Shown here piece after piece: positions 1 through 23,015 of a stretch of DNA of 64,000 nt (position 1 is its first letter; the number at the start of each line of letters is the position of its first letter). The stretch comes from Clostridiaceae bacterium (GTDB lineage: Bacteria; Bacillota; Clostridia; Tissierellales; Sporanaerobacteraceae): assembly GCA_019391515.1 (NCBI GenBank), contig JAHXQP010000030.1:124001-188000 (forward strand). The letters run 5' to 3'. The notes below the pieces were generated by a model, which was not told the DNA's origin, ran no database searches, and saw only the letters and a program-made list of their open reading frames with translations. A program made the translations under genes and the position numbers.

Positions 1-1297
1 AGTAAATTTCTTCTTTATCATTTAAAAACTCCATTAGCTCATCAGGATTACACTGCTCTTTTAAAGTATCATAAATCTTAACTTCATCTACTTTGCATAG
101 TTTTGAAAGCTCTTCCACTAAATAAGGTCTTGCACTCTTAGCCCTTGGAATTAGAACTCTATCTTTGCCATTTAAAATACTTTTTAATTCTTCTGCTAAA
201 GCCTCAGCTACGTATTCATTTGGAATAATATCTGGTTTTATTCCATACTTTTCTATAGCTTTTCCTGTTTTAGGACCAATTGCTCCAATCTTTAGGCCTC
301 CTAATCTTCTAGAATCATAGCCAAGAGAAAACAATTTTTCGAAAAATATATCTGCTCCATTTTTACTAGTTAATATAATATAAGTATATCTATCTATATT
401 TTCAATAGCTTCATCCAATTCTAAATTAGGAGATATTTCATCTATTTTAATAGTTGGAAATTCATAGGTTATAGCTCCAAGTTCTTTAAGTTGACTAACA
501 GACCCTTTTTTTTGCGATTTAGCCCTAGTTATAACTACAGTTTTGCCAAATAACGGTTTCTTATCAAAAAAGTTAAGGTTTTTTCTTAATTTAACTACTT
601 CTCCTACCGCTATAAGACTTGGTGGAGTTATTTTTTCTTTCAATGCTTTTTCATATATATTTGAAAGATTACCTTCAACTACCCTTTGATAAGGTGTTGT
701 AGCCCAATTTATTATGGCTACAGGTGTATCTTCAGGTTTACCATTTTCAATAAGATTTTCACATATCTTTTTCAAATTTGAAACTCCCATTAAAAACACA
801 AGAGTACCTTTTAATTTTGCTAGTGAACTCCAATTCAGTTCTTCGTTTTCATCTTTCAAATGTCCAGTTATGACATGGAAAGATGAAGCATAGTCTCTAT
901 GGGTTATAGGTATTCCAGCATAAGCTAATCCTCCAATAGGAGAAGTAACCCCTGGTACAGTTTCAAAAGGAATATCCCTCTTAATTAAATATTCCCCTTC
1001 TTCTCCCCCTCTTCCAAATACATAGGGGTCTCCTCCTTTAAGCCTTGCAACAATATTGCCATCTAAAGCTTCCCTATATATTATTTCATTTATTTCATCT
1101 TGGGTTTTAGCATGGTTTTTTGCTTCTTTTCCCACATATATAAATTTACAGTTTTCCCTTGCTTCTTCCAATAAGCTGTCATTTGCCAACCTATCATATA
1201 CTATTACATCCGCATTCTTTATACATTTTAGCCCTTTTACAGTTATTAAACTAGAATCTCCTGGACCAGCTCCTATTAAATATACTTTTCCCTTCAT
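1..1297 (-). CDS. cobA-hemD: Uroporphyrinogen-III C-methyltransferase / uroporphyrinogen-III synthase fusion (CobA-HemD), 3' end cut by window
   Basis: Translating the minus strand from 1297 gives 432 residues without a stop before the window edge, so only the C-terminus is missing. The first ~240 residues form a SUMT-type methyltransferase: an N-terminal GAGPGD SAM-binding loop, then KGGDPYVFGRGGEE and a VPGVTS segment. The rest (from about residue 250, VVITRAKSQ) is a HemD-type domain that cyclises hydroxymethylbilane to uroporphyrinogen III. The methyltransferase then makes precorrin-2, committing flux to siroheme and cobalamin. The ATG overlaps the hemC stop by 4 nt (ATGA), so translation is probably coupled. 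Fusions of this order are usual in clostridia. Last visible gene of the riboswitch-led operon. Confidence 0.93.
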   Translation of the reverse strand, partial: MKGKVYLIGAGPGDSSLITVKGLKCIKNADVIVYDRLANDSLLEEARENCKFIYVGKEAKNHAKTQDEINEIIYREALDGNIVARLKGGDPYVFGRGGEEGEYLIKRDIPFETVPGVTSPIGGLAYAGIPITHRDYASSFHVITGHLKDENEELNWSSLAKLKGTLVFLMGVSNLKKICENLIENGKPEDTPVAIINWATTPYQRVVEGNLSNIYEKALKEKITPPSLIAVGEVVKLRKNLNFFDKKPLFGKTVVITRAKSQKKGSVSQLKELGAITYEFPTIKIDEISPNLELDEAIENIDRYTYIILTSKNGADIFFEKLFSLGYDSRRLGGLKIGAIGPKTGKAIEKYGIKPDIIPNEYVAEALAEELKSILNGKDRVLIPRAKSARPYLVEELSKLCKVDEVKIYDTLKEQCNPDELMEFLNDKEEIY

Positions 1298-15494: not shown

Positions 15495-15815
15495 TTAAAA
15501 TTCTTTCCTATGTCGTAATCCTAATAAATTAGATATATGCATAGTAAATATAATTCCTGTTCCTGGTTTTTTAAGGTTTCCTGCTTCTACCATAGTATCA
15601 TATATCTTTTCATATTTTGATTCTTCACTCACTATAAGAATTACTTCCTTTGAAGCCTCTATGTGTATATTTAAAAATTTTTGTATTTCACTTTCTCCTG
15701 TTCCTCTTCCATATAGAATTGTAGCCCCTTTTGCTCCTGCCATCTTTGCTTTATCAACTATTTTATCTGCCTTACCTCTTTCCACTATAGCAACAATACA
15801 TATTTTTTCTTCCAT
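15495..15815 (-). CDS. PII-like (GlnB-fold) regulatory protein paired with DUF1538
   Basis: A 106-residue protein of the PII superfamily. The ferredoxin-like pattern is visible (KICIVAIVERGKADKIVDKAKMAGAKGATILYGRGTG, then the late PGTGIIFTMHIS strand where PII has its nucleotide-binding loop). The T-loop region differs from true GlnB/GlnK and lacks the uridylylated Tyr motif, so it is not a standard nitrogen PII. It starts 17 nt downstream of a DUF1538 membrane-protein gene on the same strand. By analogy with GlnK/AmtB and SbtB/SbtA, it probably binds nucleotides and controls that membrane protein. Confidence 0.82.
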   Translation of the reverse strand: MEEKICIVAIVERGKADKIVDKAKMAGAKGATILYGRGTGESEIQKFLNIHIEASKEVILIVSEESKYEKIYDTMVEAGNLKKPGTGIIFTMHISNLLGLRHRKEF

Positions 15816-15831
15816 CTTATATACTCCTTTC

Positions 15832-16533
15832 TTAAAATTTAGCTAGTATTCCTAAAGTTAAAACAGAAATAACAGCACCTAAAGATGTCAATCCTACAAT
15901 ACCAAATCCATTGAGAAGAGGATCTGAGTTTTCTATTATTTTTGAAAGTCCTATTGCTACTGCCATATTTAAAGGAATATTTACAGGTCCAGTAGTAGAA
16001 CTTGCTGAATCCATTGCTATAGCTACAAATTCATCTGGTGCAAAATAAACAAGTATAAGTATTATAAAGAGTATAGGCATTATTATCTTAGTATTAGGTA
16101 TATTATTCAATATCTTAAATATTCCTAATGCCATTCCTCCTCCAAATCCTATAGCTACAGCTTGAATAAGAACCTTATTAGGGATAGCCCCTATAGATAT
16201 CTCCTCTACTTCTAAAGCTAAAGCCTTTAATGCTGGTTCTACTAAAGTAGCAAAATAGCCTAAAACAAATGCAAAAACTATGATCATCCATTTATAATCA
16301 AGATATATTAAATTTTTTCCTACTGAATCCCCTAATGGGATTAAAGATATAGAAACTCCCTTTAAAAAAAAGTGTAATCCAAGTATACTTAATAAAAATC
16401 CTAATACAAAGTCTTTTAAATTTTCTATAGGTTTCTTAAGAATTAAAATTTGAAACAAGAGAAGAAAAGCTGATATAGGAATAACACTTCTTGCTGTTTC
16501 CCATAATGCTCTTAGCCCCTCTAAACTTTTCAT
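15832..16533 (-). CDS. DUF1538 family membrane protein
   Basis: A 233-residue integral membrane protein with about seven hydrophobic segments. The ISLIPLGDSVG segment and the later FGGGMALGIFKI fit one DUF1538 unit; many relatives carry two units or two adjacent genes, but only one is found here. Function is not established; the family looks like a transporter or channel and is repeatedly found beside PII-like genes, as here. Its ribosome binding site is GGGGGA-like before the ATG at 16533. Confidence 0.75.
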   Translation of the reverse strand: MKSLEGLRALWETARSVIPISAFLLLFQILILKKPIENLKDFVLGFLLSILGLHFFLKGVSISLIPLGDSVGKNLIYLDYKWMIIVFAFVLGYFATLVEPALKALALEVEEISIGAIPNKVLIQAVAIGFGGGMALGIFKILNNIPNTKIIMPILFIILILVYFAPDEFVAIAMDSASSTTGPVNIPLNMAVAIGLSKIIENSDPLLNGFGIVGLTSLGAVISVLTLGILAKF

Positions 16534-16865
16534 TGTAACATCCCCCTTGTTTATTATTTTAAATTAAACTAGAAATATTGTTATTTTTATAAATAATTCT
16601 GAAAATCTTACTAAACCCCCTTGACTTACAGCATCATAATAATTAAAATAGTAAAAGATATACAAAGACAGGAAATAAACTAGAAATGATATTTGAATTT
16701 TTCACATTAAATAGAATTATATCATATTTGATATTATATATAAAATATATGGCTATAATTGAAAAGGATTTATTTATTTACTCATCTTAGGGTAAACATA
16801 ATTATATAGGTATAAAGGTATAGATCATGTTTTATGTAAATCTATAAAGATTGGAGGTATATAAA
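16534..16865. other. Divergent intergenic region
   Basis: 332 bp between the DUF1538 gene (minus) and the TIM-barrel gene (plus). A possible plus-strand promoter is TTGACT (16621-16626), 17 nt, TAAAAT (16644-16649), though this would leave a leader of about 200 nt. No structured RNA recognised. Confidence 0.4.
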
Positions 16866-17540
16866 ATGGAAAGGTATATTCCCGAAGTGAAATCCAAGCT
16901 TAGAAGTCGAATAATAGAAGTACCACCAGTTATATATAAAGCTACTGGAATAAAAGTATTGGGAACTAGAATTAAATCACTACTTTTTTCTACAGATGTA
17001 GCTGTAATAAAAAATACTAATGCTAATTCAATAATAGCAGTATATCCCTTTACTCCTCAACTCTCTATTACTCAAGCAATTTTGGAAGTAGCTCCAGTAC
17101 CTGTTTTTGTCGGAGTAGGTGGTGGACTCACTACAGGAAAAAGATCTGTAGATATTGCCCTTCAAGCAGAACTTATGGGGGCTTATGGTGTAGTAGTCAA
17201 TGCTCCTACTAGTAAAGAAGTAATAAGTAAAATGTATAAGAGGATAGATATACCTATCATTGCAACTATAGCATCTGATTGTGATGATTATAAGGCAAAA
17301 TTAGATGCCGGTGCTAGAATTTTAAATATATCAGGGGGACCAAAAACTGCTGAAATAGTTAGAACTATCAGGAAAGACTATGGAAAAGAACTTCCAATCA
17401 TAGCTACAGGTGGCCCTACAGATGAATCTATATTAGAAACCATTGAATCTGGTGCCAATGCTATTACTTATACCCCACCTTCAAGCGGAGAAGTTTTCTC
17501 CGATATAATGGATCAGTACAGAATAAAAAAAGAAAAATAA
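16866..17540 (+). CDS. TIM-barrel family protein, putative hydrolase
   Basis: A 224-residue soluble protein with a (beta/alpha)8 look: alternating hydrophobic strands and a C-terminal phosphate-binding pattern (ILNISGGPKTAEIV, then PIIATGGPTDESILETIESGANAITYTPP). Close relatives in clostridia are generally labelled simply as hydrolases; I cannot name a substrate. The ATG at 16866 follows TTGGAGG by a normal gap, so the frame's upstream TTG at 16851 is not the start. It is monocistronic with a terminator directly behind it. Confidence 0.65.
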   Translation: MERYIPEVKSKLRSRIIEVPPVIYKATGIKVLGTRIKSLLFSTDVAVIKNTNANSIIAVYPFTPQLSITQAILEVAPVPVFVGVGGGLTTGKRSVDIALQAELMGAYGVVVNAPTSKEVISKMYKRIDIPIIATIASDCDDYKAKLDAGARILNISGGPKTAEIVRTIRKDYGKELPIIATGGPTDESILETIESGANAITYTPPSSGEVFSDIMDQYRIKKEK

Positions 17541-17569: not shown

Positions 17570-18976
17570 TTAAGGAGTCGTCAATTGTTCTCTTACTTTT
17601 CCCTTCTCCACTTTAATCTTTCTATCATAATCTTTTGTAGTTTTGAGTATAAGTGGACTTAAACCTATAATGCCTATAACATTTGGTATTATCATCAAAC
17701 CATTAAATACATCTGATAAATTCCATACTGTTTCTAACGATGTAGTAGCTCCTACAAAAGTTAAAATTATCCAAGCCCAGCTATAATAATTTACAGCTTT
17801 TAAACCAGCAATATATTCAACACATTTAGAACCATAATAATACCAACCAAGAATAGTTGAAAATGCAAAGAATATTAATCCAACAGATATAATATAACCA
17901 CCTACTCCTGGAAGTAATTTTTGAAAAGCTGCCGTAGTTAAAGTAGCTCCCTTTAAATTACCCTCAATTGCCATGGCACCATTTGCTTCTATACTGACTA
18001 ATCCTGAAGTTAATATAACAAGGGCTGTCATTGTACAAATTATAATAGTATCAATAAAAACACCTAGTGAAGCATTAATACCTTCAATCATTGGATCTTC
18101 ATTTTTAGAAGCAGCATGAGCTATTGGAGCACTTCCAAGACCAGCTTCATTTGAAAATACCCCCCTTGCAATTCCAAATCTTATAACTGTACCAAGAAGT
18201 CCACCACCTACTGCTTGAGCTGTAAAAGCATTTGTAAATATCATTTTGAAAACTGTCGGAATCATAGTTGCATTACTAAATATTGCTATTAGTGAACCTA
18301 TAATATATATTATTGCCATTGCAGGTACCAGTTTTTCAGTAACACGGCCTATATTTTTAATACCACCAATTATTACTAATCCCGTAAGTACAGCAATAAC
18401 TATTCCAGTTATGAAAGGACTTAAGCCAAAAGTAGCTTCTACAGATTCAGAAACAGAATTGGCTTGAGTCATATTTCCAATACCAAAAGAGGCTACAAAT
18501 CCAAAAAATGCAAACAACCAACCAAGCCAATTAGCATTAACTCCATATTGTTCTTTAAATCCTCTACTTATATAATACATTGGCCCACCAGATTTTTCCC
18601 CATCTTCATTTGTTATTCTATACTTTATAGCTAAGAAAGCTTCTGCAAATTTAGTAGCTCCACCAAAAGCACCACTTATCCACATCCAAAATACTGCTCC
18701 TGGTCCTCCAAAAGTTATGGCAGATGCAACTCCAACAATATTTCCTGTTCCAATAGTCGCTGCCATAGATGTCATCAATGCTTGAAATGGAGTAATGTCT
18801 CCATCTCCGACATCTTCTTTAGAAAAAAGGGATTTAGTAGCAAATTTCATTTTCCTGAACTGAATAAACTTAGTCCCAAAGCTTAAATATATTCCAGTAC
18901 CTACTAGTAGTGCAACAGTAGCAGGTCCCCAAACTACTTCAGCAGCTTTTGAGATAAAGCTTTGAAAGAAGTTCAT
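17570..18976 (-). CDS. Sodium:alanine/glutamine symporter (AGCS family), copy 1
   Basis: A 468-residue sodium-coupled amino acid carrier. AGCS signatures are clear: FQALMTSMAATIGTGNIVGVA, GGPGAVFWMWISGAFGGATKFAEAFLA, and SNEAGLGSAPIAHAA. It is about 70-75% identical by eye to copy 2 at 19411-20823. A strong GGAGG precedes the ATG. Upstream lie a promoter (TTGAAA-18-TATAAT) and a 35-bp element shared with copy 2. Because a GlnK/GlnL-type system adjoins the cluster, glutamine is as likely a substrate as alanine. Confidence 0.92.
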   Translation of the reverse strand: MNFFQSFISKAAEVVWGPATVALLVGTGIYLSFGTKFIQFRKMKFATKSLFSKEDVGDGDITPFQALMTSMAATIGTGNIVGVASAITFGGPGAVFWMWISGAFGGATKFAEAFLAIKYRITNEDGEKSGGPMYYISRGFKEQYGVNANWLGWLFAFFGFVASFGIGNMTQANSVSESVEATFGLSPFITGIVIAVLTGLVIIGGIKNIGRVTEKLVPAMAIIYIIGSLIAIFSNATMIPTVFKMIFTNAFTAQAVGGGLLGTVIRFGIARGVFSNEAGLGSAPIAHAASKNEDPMIEGINASLGVFIDTIIICTMTALVILTSGLVSIEANGAMAIEGNLKGATLTTAAFQKLLPGVGGYIISVGLIFFAFSTILGWYYYGSKCVEYIAGLKAVNYYSWAWIILTFVGATTSLETVWNLSDVFNGLMIIPNVIGIIGLSPLILKTTKDYDRKIKVEKGKVREQLTTP

Positions 18977-19031
18977 ATATATACCTCCTAATTTATATTA
19001 TTGATGTATTAATTAAGCTTCACTTTACTAC

Positions 19032-19061
19032 ATTATACTACAATTTATAGTTAAGTTTCAA
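19032..19061 (-). promoter_or_regulatory. Predicted sigma-A promoter of AGCS copy 1
   Basis: On the minus strand TTGAAA (19061-19056), 18 nt, TATAAT (19037-19032). It gives a leader of roughly 50 nt before the ATG at 18976. Confidence 0.6.
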
Positions 19062-19067
19062 GCTATT

Positions 19068-19124
19068 TTCTGAAAATTTAAAATCGTTTTTATTTTCACA
19101 ATACTTCGTTTGTATTTTCACAAT
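19068..19124 (-). promoter_or_regulatory. Candidate activator site upstream of AGCS copy 1
   Basis: Contains a 35-bp segment (19068-19102) matching 32 of 35 bases of 20902-20936 upstream of AGCS copy 2. Inside it TGAAAAT and ATTTTCA form arms separated by 14 nt. A 19-nt piece of it (19084-19102) recurs once at 19106-19124 with one mismatch, a 22-bp period, about two helical turns. It abuts the -35 box, where an activator would sit. Confidence 0.55.
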
Positions 19125-19337
19125 TTTCATTTAGGTTCAATTATGTTATCAAACTATATCTAATCACTATATTGGCTTCATTACATATGTTTTTTATAAT
19201 CTATTTAATTAGATATAAATTGTTTTTACACGCAATTTTCTATGCCATTACCATGTTTTTGATATATGATTCACAATCAGTATCCTTATATCAACTTTTC
19301 TTGTTAAATAATCTTAAGGTAGCAAAATTTCTACATA

Positions 19338-19387
19338 AAAAAGCTTGTTTGGTTTAAATAATATTATTTAAACCAAACAAGCTTTTT
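19338..19387. terminator. 50-bp perfect palindrome, terminator of AGCS copy 2
   Basis: A perfect self-complementary sequence of 25-nt arms with no spacer (AAAAAGCTTG at one end, CAAGCTTTTT at the other, centre AATAAT|ATTATT). It follows the stop of AGCS copy 2 by 23 nt. As RNA it makes a very long hairpin followed by Us on either strand. Confidence 0.8.
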
Positions 19388-19410
19388 GTTTACATATATT
19401 TATTATTAAA

Positions 19411-20823
19411 TTATCCTATAGGATCTGTTAATTGTTCACTCACTTTTCCTTTTTCAATCTTAACTTTCTTATCATATTCTTTTGTCATATTAAATACTAC
19501 TGGGCTAAGAGCTATAAGTCCTATTATATTTGGTATTGCCATAAGTCCATTAAACATATCAGATAGATTCCAAACTATTTCTAAAGGTACAACTGCTCCT
19601 ACAAAAGAAAGGCCAACCCAAACCCATTTATATATATTTACAGCTTTTAGTCCAGCAATATATTCTATACATTTAGCTCCATAATAATACCATCCAATAA
19701 TCGTTGAAAATGCAAAGAATATTAATCCAAATGTTACTATATAGCCTCCTATACCTGGTATTAGTCTATCAAAGGCTACCGTAGTTAATGTAGCACCATT
19801 TAAATTTCCTTCAATTGCCATAGCACCATTTCCATTAATAGTTACTAATCCAGAAGTTAAAATAACTATTGCAGTCATAGTACATATTATTATAGTAGTG
19901 AAAAATGAATCAAGTGAAGCTATAATTCCTTGAGCTACAGGATCATCATTTTTAGATGAAGCATGAGCAATCGGGGCACTTCCAAGTCCAGCTTCGTTTG
20001 AAAACATCCCTCTAGATATACCTATTCTAATAACAGTACCTAATGTACCTCCTGCTAACGCTTTTGCCGTAAAAGCATTTGTAAATATCATTTTGAAAAC
20101 TGTTGGAACCATAGTTACATTACTTAATACAGCTATAATTGCACCAACAATATAGGATACTGACATTATAGGTACTATTTTTTCAGTTATTTTTCCTATG
20201 TTCTTAACCCCTCCAATTATTACTAAGGCTGTTAATGCTGCTATAACTCCTCCTGAAATATAGGGGTTTATTCCAAGAACAACCTTTAGCGAATCAGAAA
20301 CAGCATTAGCTTGGGTCATATTTCCAGTACCAAGAGAAGCTATAAGGCCAAATAATGCAAACAACCATCCAAGCCATCTAGCGTTAATACCATATTGTTC
20401 CTTTATACCTCTACTTATATAGTACATTGGTCCGCCAGATTTTTCTCCATCCTCATTTGTTATTCTATATTTTACTGCAAGAAGACCTTCAGCATATTTA
20501 GTAGCTCCACCAAAAAGACCACTTACCCACATCCAAAATACTGCCCCTGGTCCTCCCATTACTATCGCAGAAGCTACTCCTGCAATATTACCTGTTCCTA
20601 TAGTCGCTGCCATAGATGTCATCAGCGCTTGAAATGGAGTCAAATCACCTTCTCCATCATCTGAGCTAGAAGTAAGTAATTTAAGACTAGTCTTCATTTT
20701 TCTAAATTGGATAAACCTAGTAGCAATACTTAAATAAATACCTATACCTACTAATAGAAGAATAGTTACAGGTCCCCAAGCAAATTCTACTCCTCGGGAA
20801 ACGATTGCATTAAAAATATCCAT
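19411..20823 (-). CDS. Sodium:alanine/glutamine symporter (AGCS family), copy 2
   Basis: A 470-residue paralogue of the neighbouring carrier with the same family blocks (TSMAATIGTGNIAGVA, GGPGAVFWMWVSGLFGG, SNEAGLGSAPIAHAS). The frame is open to 20889, but the ATG at 20823 has AGGAGG at the correct distance and gives an N-terminus aligned with copy 1. It lies 91 nt downstream of the response-regulator gene on the same strand and carries the shared 35-bp element just upstream. In Bacillus subtilis the GlnK-GlnL system controls the AGCS glutamine carrier GlnT, a strong parallel. Confidence 0.92.
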   Translation of the reverse strand: MDIFNAIVSRGVEFAWGPVTILLLVGIGIYLSIATRFIQFRKMKTSLKLLTSSSDDGEGDLTPFQALMTSMAATIGTGNIAGVASAIVMGGPGAVFWMWVSGLFGGATKYAEGLLAVKYRITNEDGEKSGGPMYYISRGIKEQYGINARWLGWLFALFGLIASLGTGNMTQANAVSDSLKVVLGINPYISGGVIAALTALVIIGGVKNIGKITEKIVPIMSVSYIVGAIIAVLSNVTMVPTVFKMIFTNAFTAKALAGGTLGTVIRIGISRGMFSNEAGLGSAPIAHASSKNDDPVAQGIIASLDSFFTTIIICTMTAIVILTSGLVTINGNGAMAIEGNLNGATLTTVAFDRLIPGIGGYIVTFGLIFFAFSTIIGWYYYGAKCIEYIAGLKAVNIYKWVWVGLSFVGAVVPLEIVWNLSDMFNGLMAIPNIIGLIALSPVVFNMTKEYDKKVKIEKGKVSEQLTDPIG

Positions 20824-20901
20824 ATAAAAACCTCCTAATTTAAACTTAAATAAAGTATACATTAGGAGAGTCAATAAACTACAAATCACTACAGAAATAT
20901 A

Positions 20902-20936
20902 TTCTGAAAATTTCTAATTGTTTTTATTTTCACAAT
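20902..20936 (-). promoter_or_regulatory. Candidate activator site upstream of AGCS copy 2
   Basis: 35-bp element, 32 of 35 bases identical to 19068-19102. It overlaps the last codons and stop of the response-regulator gene and lies 79 nt before the AGCS start. A possible -10 (TATACT, 20859-20854) lacks a good -35, as expected of an activator-dependent promoter. Confidence 0.5.
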
Positions 20937-21759
20937 GTATTATTAGTCCAGCTATAAATTTTTTTGTATTTACAGAGCCACCTCTCTTATTTTTACCTCT
21001 TATAAAGTCCATTTCCTTCTTAACCTGCTCAAAATTAAATAAACTACTAGAATACTCCACAAATATATCATTCATATAATCCTCAATGCCTAAACTAGCT
21101 ATATTTGACATAGCTACAGCTATAGCCCTTCTCATTCTTTGCTCCATAGACTTTGGATTTTCAGAAAAATTATTGCAAAGGTTTCGTATAGTCATATTAG
21201 ATATATCTACATTATTATTAATGATATAATCACAAACTTTAATAATATCATAACTTCCTTTTTCACCCATGATACCTAATTTTTTTAATATATTTTTGAT
21301 ATATTGTTCACAAGAATCTTTTTCGACCCTATTTTCAATAGAAACTTCTTTATCATTGAATAACTCTTGAATTTTCATAAGGGTTTTATCAATCTGCATT
21401 CTCTCTCCAACTTTTTTTATAATAGTTTCTACTTCTAATGCATTTATCGGTTTATAAATATAATACTCTACACCATGCTTATAGGCTTTTTCAACCATAT
21501 CTTTAGATGATACTTGAGATATCATTATGAATTCCATACTTGAATAAATAGATTTTAATTTTTTTACAATAGATATACCATCCTCACCTGGCATTAAAAG
21601 ATCGATGAGAACTAAATCTGGTTTAAGAGATTCAATCTTTTCATATCCTTCTTTTCCATTCACAGCTTTTCCTACGACAGTTCCTAGGTTTCTATCATGA
21701 ATAATCTTCTCTAATATTCTAATAACATTTATATCATCATCCAAAATAAATATTCTCAT
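20914..21759 (-). CDS. GlnL/YcbB-type response regulator
   Basis: A 281-residue two-component regulator. Residues 1-120 form a receiver domain: acidic pocket LDDD, phospho-acceptor Asp in LVLIDLLMPGEDG (about residue 54), and Lys in YIYKPIN. The C-terminal ~150 residues match the YcbB/GlnL DNA-binding domain (GEKGSYDIIKVCDYI, ENPKSMEQRMRRAIAVAMSNIASLG). It overlaps its sensor kinase by 4 nt. In Bacillus this protein class activates glutaminase and the glutamine carrier; the AGCS carriers next door are the obvious targets. Confidence 0.88.
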   Translation of the reverse strand: MRIFILDDDINVIRILEKIIHDRNLGTVVGKAVNGKEGYEKIESLKPDLVLIDLLMPGEDGISIVKKLKSIYSSMEFIMISQVSSKDMVEKAYKHGVEYYIYKPINALEVETIIKKVGERMQIDKTLMKIQELFNDKEVSIENRVEKDSCEQYIKNILKKLGIMGEKGSYDIIKVCDYIINNNVDISNMTIRNLCNNFSENPKSMEQRMRRAIAVAMSNIASLGIEDYMNDIFVEYSSSLFNFEQVKKEMDFIRGKNKRGGSVNTKKFIAGLIIHCENKNN

Positions 21760-23015
21760 ATACTATCACCCTCCAATTCTATAATTGGAATAGATATTTC
21801 AAACTTAGTCCCTTTAGCTTCTTTGGAATCTATAGAAATATTCCCTTTTAAATGAACTTCAACTAGATTTTTAACAAGACTTAATCCTAAACCTCTATTT
21901 ATCTCACCTGTAACATAATTTATTTTTGTAGAATACCCTGGAGAAAAAATATACGCTAAATCTTCTTTCGGTATTCCACAACCAGTATCTTTAATTATAA
22001 AAACATGTTTTTCATATTCAGTTTCATGAATAAAAATGATTTTACCCCTATCTTCAATAGAATCAATGGAATTCATTATAATATTTCTTAGTATAGACAT
22101 TAAATAGTAATGTTTTTCTGTATAAAAATCCTTTCCTAATTGAAAATCTAAGGTAATTCTTTTTTTCCTGTATTTGATTTCTGTTTCCATACTTTCTTTG
22201 AGTATTAATCCTAATTCATGAAAATGCATTCCATTATCATCGAGTTTATTAGAAATCATGTCTTCTATACCCTTAACTACTAGTCCATATTCTTTTTTTA
22301 TTTCATGAACATCTTTGGATATTTCTAGTGCTCTATTTTCCCAGCTTTCTATTTCTTCTTCATTCCTAATTTTAAAAAATAACTCATATGCATTAGACAT
22401 TACAGATTCAATATTTCCCATATTCTTTTCCATCCAATAAACTTCCGTCTTTAATCTAGATGTAAGCCAAAGGAGTTTGATATATCTTTCTTCATGCTCT
22501 TTTTTAATTAAAAACATCCTATAATACTTAAGAGCATTAAGTATTAACCATACAAATCCTGACCTTAAAAAAGCGACTAATATTAAGCCTTTCATAATCT
22601 TAAAATTATCTAAAAAAATATTATTTCCTATCCTAATATAGGCTTCTAAAAAATTGCCTAATAAATCACTTATAAATGATATAATAAACATCTGATTCAG
22701 TGTAATAGAAAATAAATAATTTTTACATAAGAAAAAGACAATACCATAGATTATATAAAAAACAGTTTCTGGAAAATACCAAAATACACCTACATCAGAA
22801 ATACTTCCTCCTAAAATAACTCTAAACATATATAATGACAATCCTGAAAAAGCTCCCAATAAAATTGGGTTAATCTCATCATACATAAATAAAAATATTG
22901 GAAATACTATACCTGCAAAAGAAAATTTAAAATTTGATATGTAAAAATTTATATAGAGTTGTGAGGACAGACCCACTGCAAAAATAGTTAAAATAAACCT
23001 TTTTTTCTTGTCCAT
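21756..23015 (-). CDS. GlnK/YcbA-type membrane sensor histidine kinase
   Basis: A 419-residue sensor. The first ~180 residues are hydrophobic with about six membrane spans and no large extracellular domain. The H-box is DVHEIKKEY, the form used by the YcbA/GlnK group, with His near residue 238. The ATPase domain shows the N-box (RNIIMNSIDS), G1 (DTGCGIP) and GRGLGLSLVK. Stop and start overlap with the response regulator (ATGA), so both are made together. The signal sensed is probably glutamine or a related amino acid, by analogy only. Confidence 0.88.
   Translation of the reverse strand: MDKKKRFILTIFAVGLSSQLYINFYISNFKFSFAGIVFPIFLFMYDEINPILLGAFSGLSLYMFRVILGGSISDVGVFWYFPETVFYIIYGIVFFLCKNYLFSITLNQMFIISFISDLLGNFLEAYIRIGNNIFLDNFKIMKGLILVAFLRSGFVWLILNALKYYRMFLIKKEHEERYIKLLWLTSRLKTEVYWMEKNMGNIESVMSNAYELFFKIRNEEEIESWENRALEISKDVHEIKKEYGLVVKGIEDMISNKLDDNGMHFHELGLILKESMETEIKYRKKRITLDFQLGKDFYTEKHYYLMSILRNIIMNSIDSIEDRGKIIFIHETEYEKHVFIIKDTGCGIPKEDLAYIFSPGYSTKINYVTGEINRGLGLSLVKNLVEVHLKGNISIDSKEAKGTKFEISIPIIELEGDSI

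Follow-up and report, generated by a model that had tools for sequence, protein, structure and literature searches.

A putative composite control region before two AGCS symporter genes, with tandem 10-bp repeats as the proposed operator of a YcbB-type response regulator

RESULTS

Genes of the locus and an element shared by two symporter genes

The DNA analysed here, a 64,000-nt stretch of a clostridial genome (hereafter the window), carries on its minus strand a two-component gene pair with two symporter genes behind it (Table 1). The histidine kinase gene lies upstream of the response regulator (RR) gene, and the two share 4 nt. The RR combines a Response_reg receiver domain (PF00072, 2.4e-22) with a YcbB domain (PF08664, 6.1e-36) and is of the GlnL/YcbB type, as the preliminary description of this DNA had proposed; its nearest named relatives are from Anaerosalibacter (94% and 82%). 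Both neighbouring symporters belong, as also proposed, to the AGCS family. AGCS1 and AGCS2 are 72% identical to each other, and the genome has six AGCS matches. It also encodes CodY (PF06018, 2.5e-68) and contains a Rex-type gene. Positions 15495-17540 of the window encode a P-II protein, a DUF1538 protein and one of 224 aa that matches DHO_dh weakly (below the cut-off). The same group occurs near AGCS genes in other loci (L002-L004, L009, L020, L167, L169 and L170) and forms a conserved neighbourhood.

Table 1. Genes and sequence features of the locus (positions in the window; RR, response regulator)
Feature	Position	Strand	Basis or remark
Histidine kinase (HATPase_c)	21756..23015	-	Pfam; adjoins RR gene, 4-nt overlap
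RR, receiver + YcbB domain	20914..21759	-	Pfam
AGCS2 symporter	19411..20823	-	Pfam
AGCS1 symporter	17570..18976	-	Pfam
Shared element, copy 2	20898..20936	-	39 nt; RR gene 3' end at 20914-20936
Left box TTGTGAAAATAAAAACAA, copy 2, inside RR coding end	20918..20935	-	Genome scan, alignment
CodY-type box AATTTTCAGAATATA	20898..20912	-	13/15 to AATTTTCWGAAAATT; predicted binding site
Three 10-bp units before AGCS2, proposed RR operator	20868..20897	-	Top score in window, 14.1
Candidate -10 of AGCS2, TATACT	20854..20859	-	8 nt after repeats; position conserved in relatives by eye
Second left box TTGTGAAAATACAAACGA, 22 bp upstream	19106..19123	-	Repeat search, alignment
Shared element, copy 1	19064..19102	-	39 nt, noncoding; 90% to copy 2, 92% to A. 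massiliensis
Left box TTGTGAAAATAAAAACGA, copy 1	19084..19101	-	Repeat search, alignment
CodY-type box AATTTTCAGAAAATA	19064..19078	-	14/15 to AATTTTCWGAAAATT; predicted binding site
Three 10-bp units before AGCS1, proposed RR operator	19017..19046	-	Second score in window, 11.7

A cis element common to the regions before both symporter genes had been described at positions 19068-19102 and 20902-20936. Read from the sequence, these two stretches share 32 of 35 bases, both on the minus strand, and 91 and 78 nt separate this core from the symporter ATGs (92 and 79 nt if counted from start to start), in agreement with that description. The likeness extends to 39 nt (19064-19102 and 20898-20936, 35/39 identical), and this longer pair was recovered independently as repeat family D5. 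Across the 434-nt spacer before the second symporter gene, identity to A. massiliensis (L003) has a median of 51%, compared with 92% for copy 1; positions 19064-19102 are the joint best-conserved 39 nt of that spacer, tied with six neighbouring frames. This conservation exceeds chance. Copy 2 runs into the RR gene, a feature that had been missed: the stop codon ends at 20914, so that 20914-20936 are coding, and the left half of this copy also encodes the C-terminus of the RR (HCENKNN).

Two internal features of the element were found as described. Copy 1 contains a 19-nt repeat with a 22-bp period (19084-19102 and 19106-19124, 18/19 identical), and TGAAAAT-N14-ATTTTCA is present in both copies. 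The latter was rejected as a functional unit because its arms vary independently in relatives (e.g. L004, L057 and L058). A genome scan for further members of a regulon, which the preliminary description had suggested, gave exact matches to TGTGAAAATAAAAAC at only the two known places in the 2.84-Mb genome. Five matches with a single mismatch were obtained, one of them being the 22-bp copy at 19108-19122, and allowing up to two mismatches gave 56 matches against 46 for the reversed pattern. Since these weaker matches sit near the level of the reversed pattern, no wider regulon is visible and the idea of a genome-wide regulon defined by the element was rejected.

Between the two symporter genes there is a perfect 25-bp inverted repeat without a loop and T-rich on both sides (19338-19387). 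Judged by these features it is likely to be a two-way terminator, and AGCS1 would therefore probably need a promoter of its own.

Tandem 10-bp repeats downstream of YcbB-type regulator genes

Relatives of the RR were sampled at 100 loci (L002-L023, L050-L079 and L096-L143) and reduced to 85 on the basis of RR similarity, 15 being removed as redundant; L140 was removed for too little downstream sequence, which left 84 loci. Of 59 RR matches in one search, 30 were obtained as loci and 20 more were added later; L024 and L025 were left out as poor relatives. In the DNA 3' of the RR stop codon, identical 5-mers containing G or C recur at a lag of 10 nt far in excess of shuffled sequences (176 versus 20, z = 27; 84 loci). 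Echoes are seen at lag 20 (z = 8.7) and lag 30 (z = 2.8), together with a smaller rise at lag 12 (z = 5.4), and there is no such signal at lag 11 in these loci. Fitting three tandem 10-bp units yielded TTTTTG(A/T)A followed by variable bases. In the 84 loci the three-unit array is mostly found near, and 5' of, a hexamer resembling TATAAT or TATACT.

In two-fold cross-validation 33-35 of 42 held-out loci exceeded the 99th percentile of shuffles. The threshold for the repeat was passed by 69 of the 84 loci, as against 0.5% of 404 GC-matched control windows from the same loci; the repeat is missing in the remaining 15 RR loci. Among loci with an AGCS gene, 30 of 31 passed (a manual count of the list); only L072, which has two units, did not. 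The repeats persist despite changes of the gene behind them: 37 other genes occur 3' of the repeats, and the ten of these that were checked against Pfam comprise SDF and Glt symporters, a PTS_EIIC_2 protein, two carriers of the Na_H_antiporter family, three substrate-binding proteins, a permease and a carbamoyltransferase.

When both strands of the 64-kb window were scanned with a repeat model trained without this genus, the two best matches were those before AGCS2 and AGCS1 (Table 1); the third-ranked match scores 10.2. Each array sits between the shared element and its symporter gene, abutting the 39-nt element in copy 2 and lying 17 nt away from it in copy 1. No clear -10 was seen at the usual place before AGCS1. 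Because the whole genome contains other matches of similar score, some within coding sequence, the repeat motif alone is not unique. One such additional candidate (G000:C2:53489-53522) was judged by eye to be coding sequence and was taken as a chance match. Four AGCS genes lie outside the locus: three (L147-L149) have no repeat match above 5, and the fourth (L146) has a three-unit match scoring 15.3 (approximately 1171-1200, minus strand), some 300 bp before the AGCS gene and on the opposite strand.

More distant loci were also considered: of 398 genomes sampled from the phylum, 52 have a YcbB domain. The repeat was found directly 3' of the RR gene in only 3 of 29 distant loci, one of them weak, and 14 longer stretches were scanned for their best repeat. 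In L202 and L204 the best match stands before a glutaminase gene that is followed by an AGCS gene; in L207 it precedes an AGCS gene, in L206 and in L208 an SDF symporter gene, and in L205 a Lyase_1 gene (Pfam assignments cover L202 and L204-L207); the scores in L206 and L207 are only 9.4 and 8.2. The other eight stretches gave weak matches, or matches in coding or ambiguous places, and the top match of L209 falls, by its coordinates, within the kinase gene. TTTTGTN4TTTTGT, which we take to be the GlnL site of Bacillus subtilis, where there are two units, occurs exactly in L204 (before the glutaminase and AGCS genes) and in L205.

From its distribution, the 10-bp repeat is very probably the operator of the RR. 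It is this feature, three units beside a -10, that tracks the RR genes across genera and targets.

A CodY-type box next to the repeats

The right half of the shared element resembles AATTTTCWGAAAATT, which PMC12772354 quotes as the CodY consensus of C. difficile, tolerating as many as four mismatches. Among the 84 RR loci the CodY half-site ranks first of 105 permutations. A box with at least 13 matches is present in 27 of these loci; 100 shuffle sets gave 1.5 such loci on average and never more than 5, and the rate in genomic control windows was 1.5%. In the genome that contains the window there is no excess of CodY-type boxes: four places lie within one mismatch of the consensus, against seven for the reversed pattern, and the three that are not in the element comprise two in coding sequence and one, AATTTTCTAAAAATT at L048:1501-1515, that is found 5' of a gene read as oppA-like, as expected of a CodY target.

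Searches for CodY detected the gene in 56 of 68 and in 21 of 22 genomes (two partly overlapping lists). Of 72 loci from genomes with CodY, 27 have a box with at least 13 matches, as opposed to none of 11 from genomes without detected CodY (P = 0.0135, kinship ignored), some of the latter genomes being only about 80% complete and the CodY-less regions being richer in GC (32% versus 27%). L076 was excluded from this count, the CodY match of its genome being below the cut-off. If only repeat-bearing loci are considered the figures are 26 of 61 and 0 of 7 (P = 0.0385, kinship again ignored). The link fades at other cut-offs; with at least 14 matches it becomes 6 of 72 versus 0 of 11 (P = 1).

In the 25 loci that have both features, the distance from box to repeat is 4-8 nt (12 loci), 16-18 nt (7), 25-27 nt (5) or 35 nt (1). 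The distances change in steps, and the box and the repeats therefore lie on nearly the same helical face. Such spacing fits two neighbouring regulators; it could also fit an RR that reads the box as well as the repeats. According to this second possibility the box, and perhaps the left boxes, belong with the repeats to a single phased RR array and the likeness to a CodY site is coincidental. The steps of about 10 nt are what such an array would show, the box and the units both contain TTTT followed one or two bases later by GAA, and the left boxes of copy 1 are 22 bp apart. However, the box is a palindrome whereas the units are direct repeats, and none of the 11 CodY-less loci has a box with at least 13 matches while seven of them keep the repeats. 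We consider a single array rather unlikely and slightly favour a CodY site as the identity of the right half of the element.

The left boxes

In copy 1 the left half lies in noncoding DNA, occurs twice with a 22-bp period and is conserved, and in L056 two similar noncoding left boxes are found 5' of a CodY-type box. An operator of Rex, which would add control by NAD+/NADH, was considered for these boxes. They show the spacing TTGT-N10-ACAA, as do sites listed in PMC5886521, L009 and L013 have perfect TTGTGAA-N4-TTCACAA palindromes in the corresponding position, across the RR stop codon, and the Rex-type gene noted above would provide the protein. Moreover, when 210 permuted half-sites are ranked, TTGTGAA comes first in the 31 AGCS-linked loci and second in the full set of 84. 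Against this, TTGTGAA is required to encode Y/H-C-E, conserved residues at the C-terminus of the RR, so that the left half of the palindrome is partly explained in this way, and its right half is degenerate in the window. Copy 2 has two mismatches to TTGTKAANNNNTTMACAA (half-sites TTGTKAA and TTMACAA), and sites of that quality number 187 in the genome against 146 for the reversed pattern. No exact site is among the genome matches listed, and the boxes of copy 1 are absent from those matches, which reach up to two mismatches. In view of the weak genome scan and the partial explanation by coding, the Rex operator was not accepted and we regard it as improbable.

The proposed operator role of the element, and its origin

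In the preliminary description the 35-bp element alone was read as the RR operator, to which an activator would bind just upstream of a TTGAAA-18-TATAAT promoter. The element is indeed conserved and common to both symporters, and the string TTGAAA-18-TATAAT exists (19032-19061). This proposed promoter overlaps the 10-bp units, TATAAT lying inside the array, and the hexamers are TTGAGG and TTTAAT in A. massiliensis. Furthermore, most of the 52 listed loci of relatives lack the whole element, whereas the 10-bp units are present in 69 of 84. The element itself is probably not the RR operator, and as sole operator it has little likelihood; an additional contact of the RR with it is possible. The assignment should probably shift to the 10-bp repeats just downstream, as their association with RR genes suggests.

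A single AGCS gene is found behind the RR gene in nine outgroup stretches (L167-L171, L004, L009, L016 and L020), and two are found in the window, L002 and L003. On the basis of gene content, not of a tree, we judge with considerable confidence that the two copies arose by tandem duplication of a symporter gene with its control region. The duplication would have included the last bases of the RR gene, and the spacers would then have diverged while the control elements were retained. That the element is merely a passive relic of this event, shared through duplication of the symporter gene and the RR gene end and devoid of a regulatory role, would agree with the overlap of copy 2 with the RR gene and with the single symporter of the outgroup stretches, but it is very unlikely given the conservation of the noncoding copy 1 in A. 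massiliensis within a far more variable spacer and the noncoding left boxes of L056.

DISCUSSION

The interpretation that we favour, with moderate confidence, is that the 39-bp element forms the upstream part of a composite control region, with a CodY-type box and with the RR acting on the repeats, which was copied along with the AGCS symporter gene. Towards the gene, the order would be a TTGTGAAAATA-type box (coinciding in copy 2 with the last RR codons), the CodY-type box, three 10-bp units and the -10. The kinase may respond to an amino acid; the phosphorylated RR would then bind the 10-bp units head to tail beside the -10 and activate the symporter gene. CodY, loaded with branched-chain amino acids and GTP, would bind the adjacent box and limit expression in rich conditions.

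The closest known system is GlnK-GlnL (YcbA-YcbB) with glsA-glnT (ybgJH) of B. subtilis, which has in common with the locus described here an RR made of a receiver and a YcbB domain, AGCS targets and tandem sites with a 10-bp period. There are three units here, whereas the B. subtilis site has two. The target lies behind the RR gene, in contrast to B. subtilis, where it is divergent from the kinase gene; the unit contains no glutaminase gene, and a CodY-type box stands beside the repeats. In B. subtilis, glutamine induces glnT through GlnK-GlnL, as stated in PMC2743287. The boxes of the window resemble known CodY boxes in matching the consensus in PMC12772354 at 14 and 13 of 15 positions and in the presence of a CodY gene in the genome; they differ in that the predicted site keeps fixed, stepwise distances to the repeats of a second regulator. 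Among the best-ranked literature matches listed, nothing was found on a YcbB/GlnL operator or on these motifs; we do not claim that the repeat is unpublished.

As a tentative generalization, YcbB-type regulators may share one operator, three head-to-tail 10-bp units set against a -10, which in many clostridia would be phased with a CodY box and with a box overlapping the 3' end of the regulator gene, so that duplication of the target copies a whole nutrient-integration module.

For the locus itself, the operator has been moved away from a plausible but probably wrong place. For the widespread PF08664 family, the repeats provide a testable operator rule. The targets of the family that were examined are carriers or enzymes, many of them for amino acids, and the prediction is that substrate-specific activation and control by CodY would converge on one promoter.
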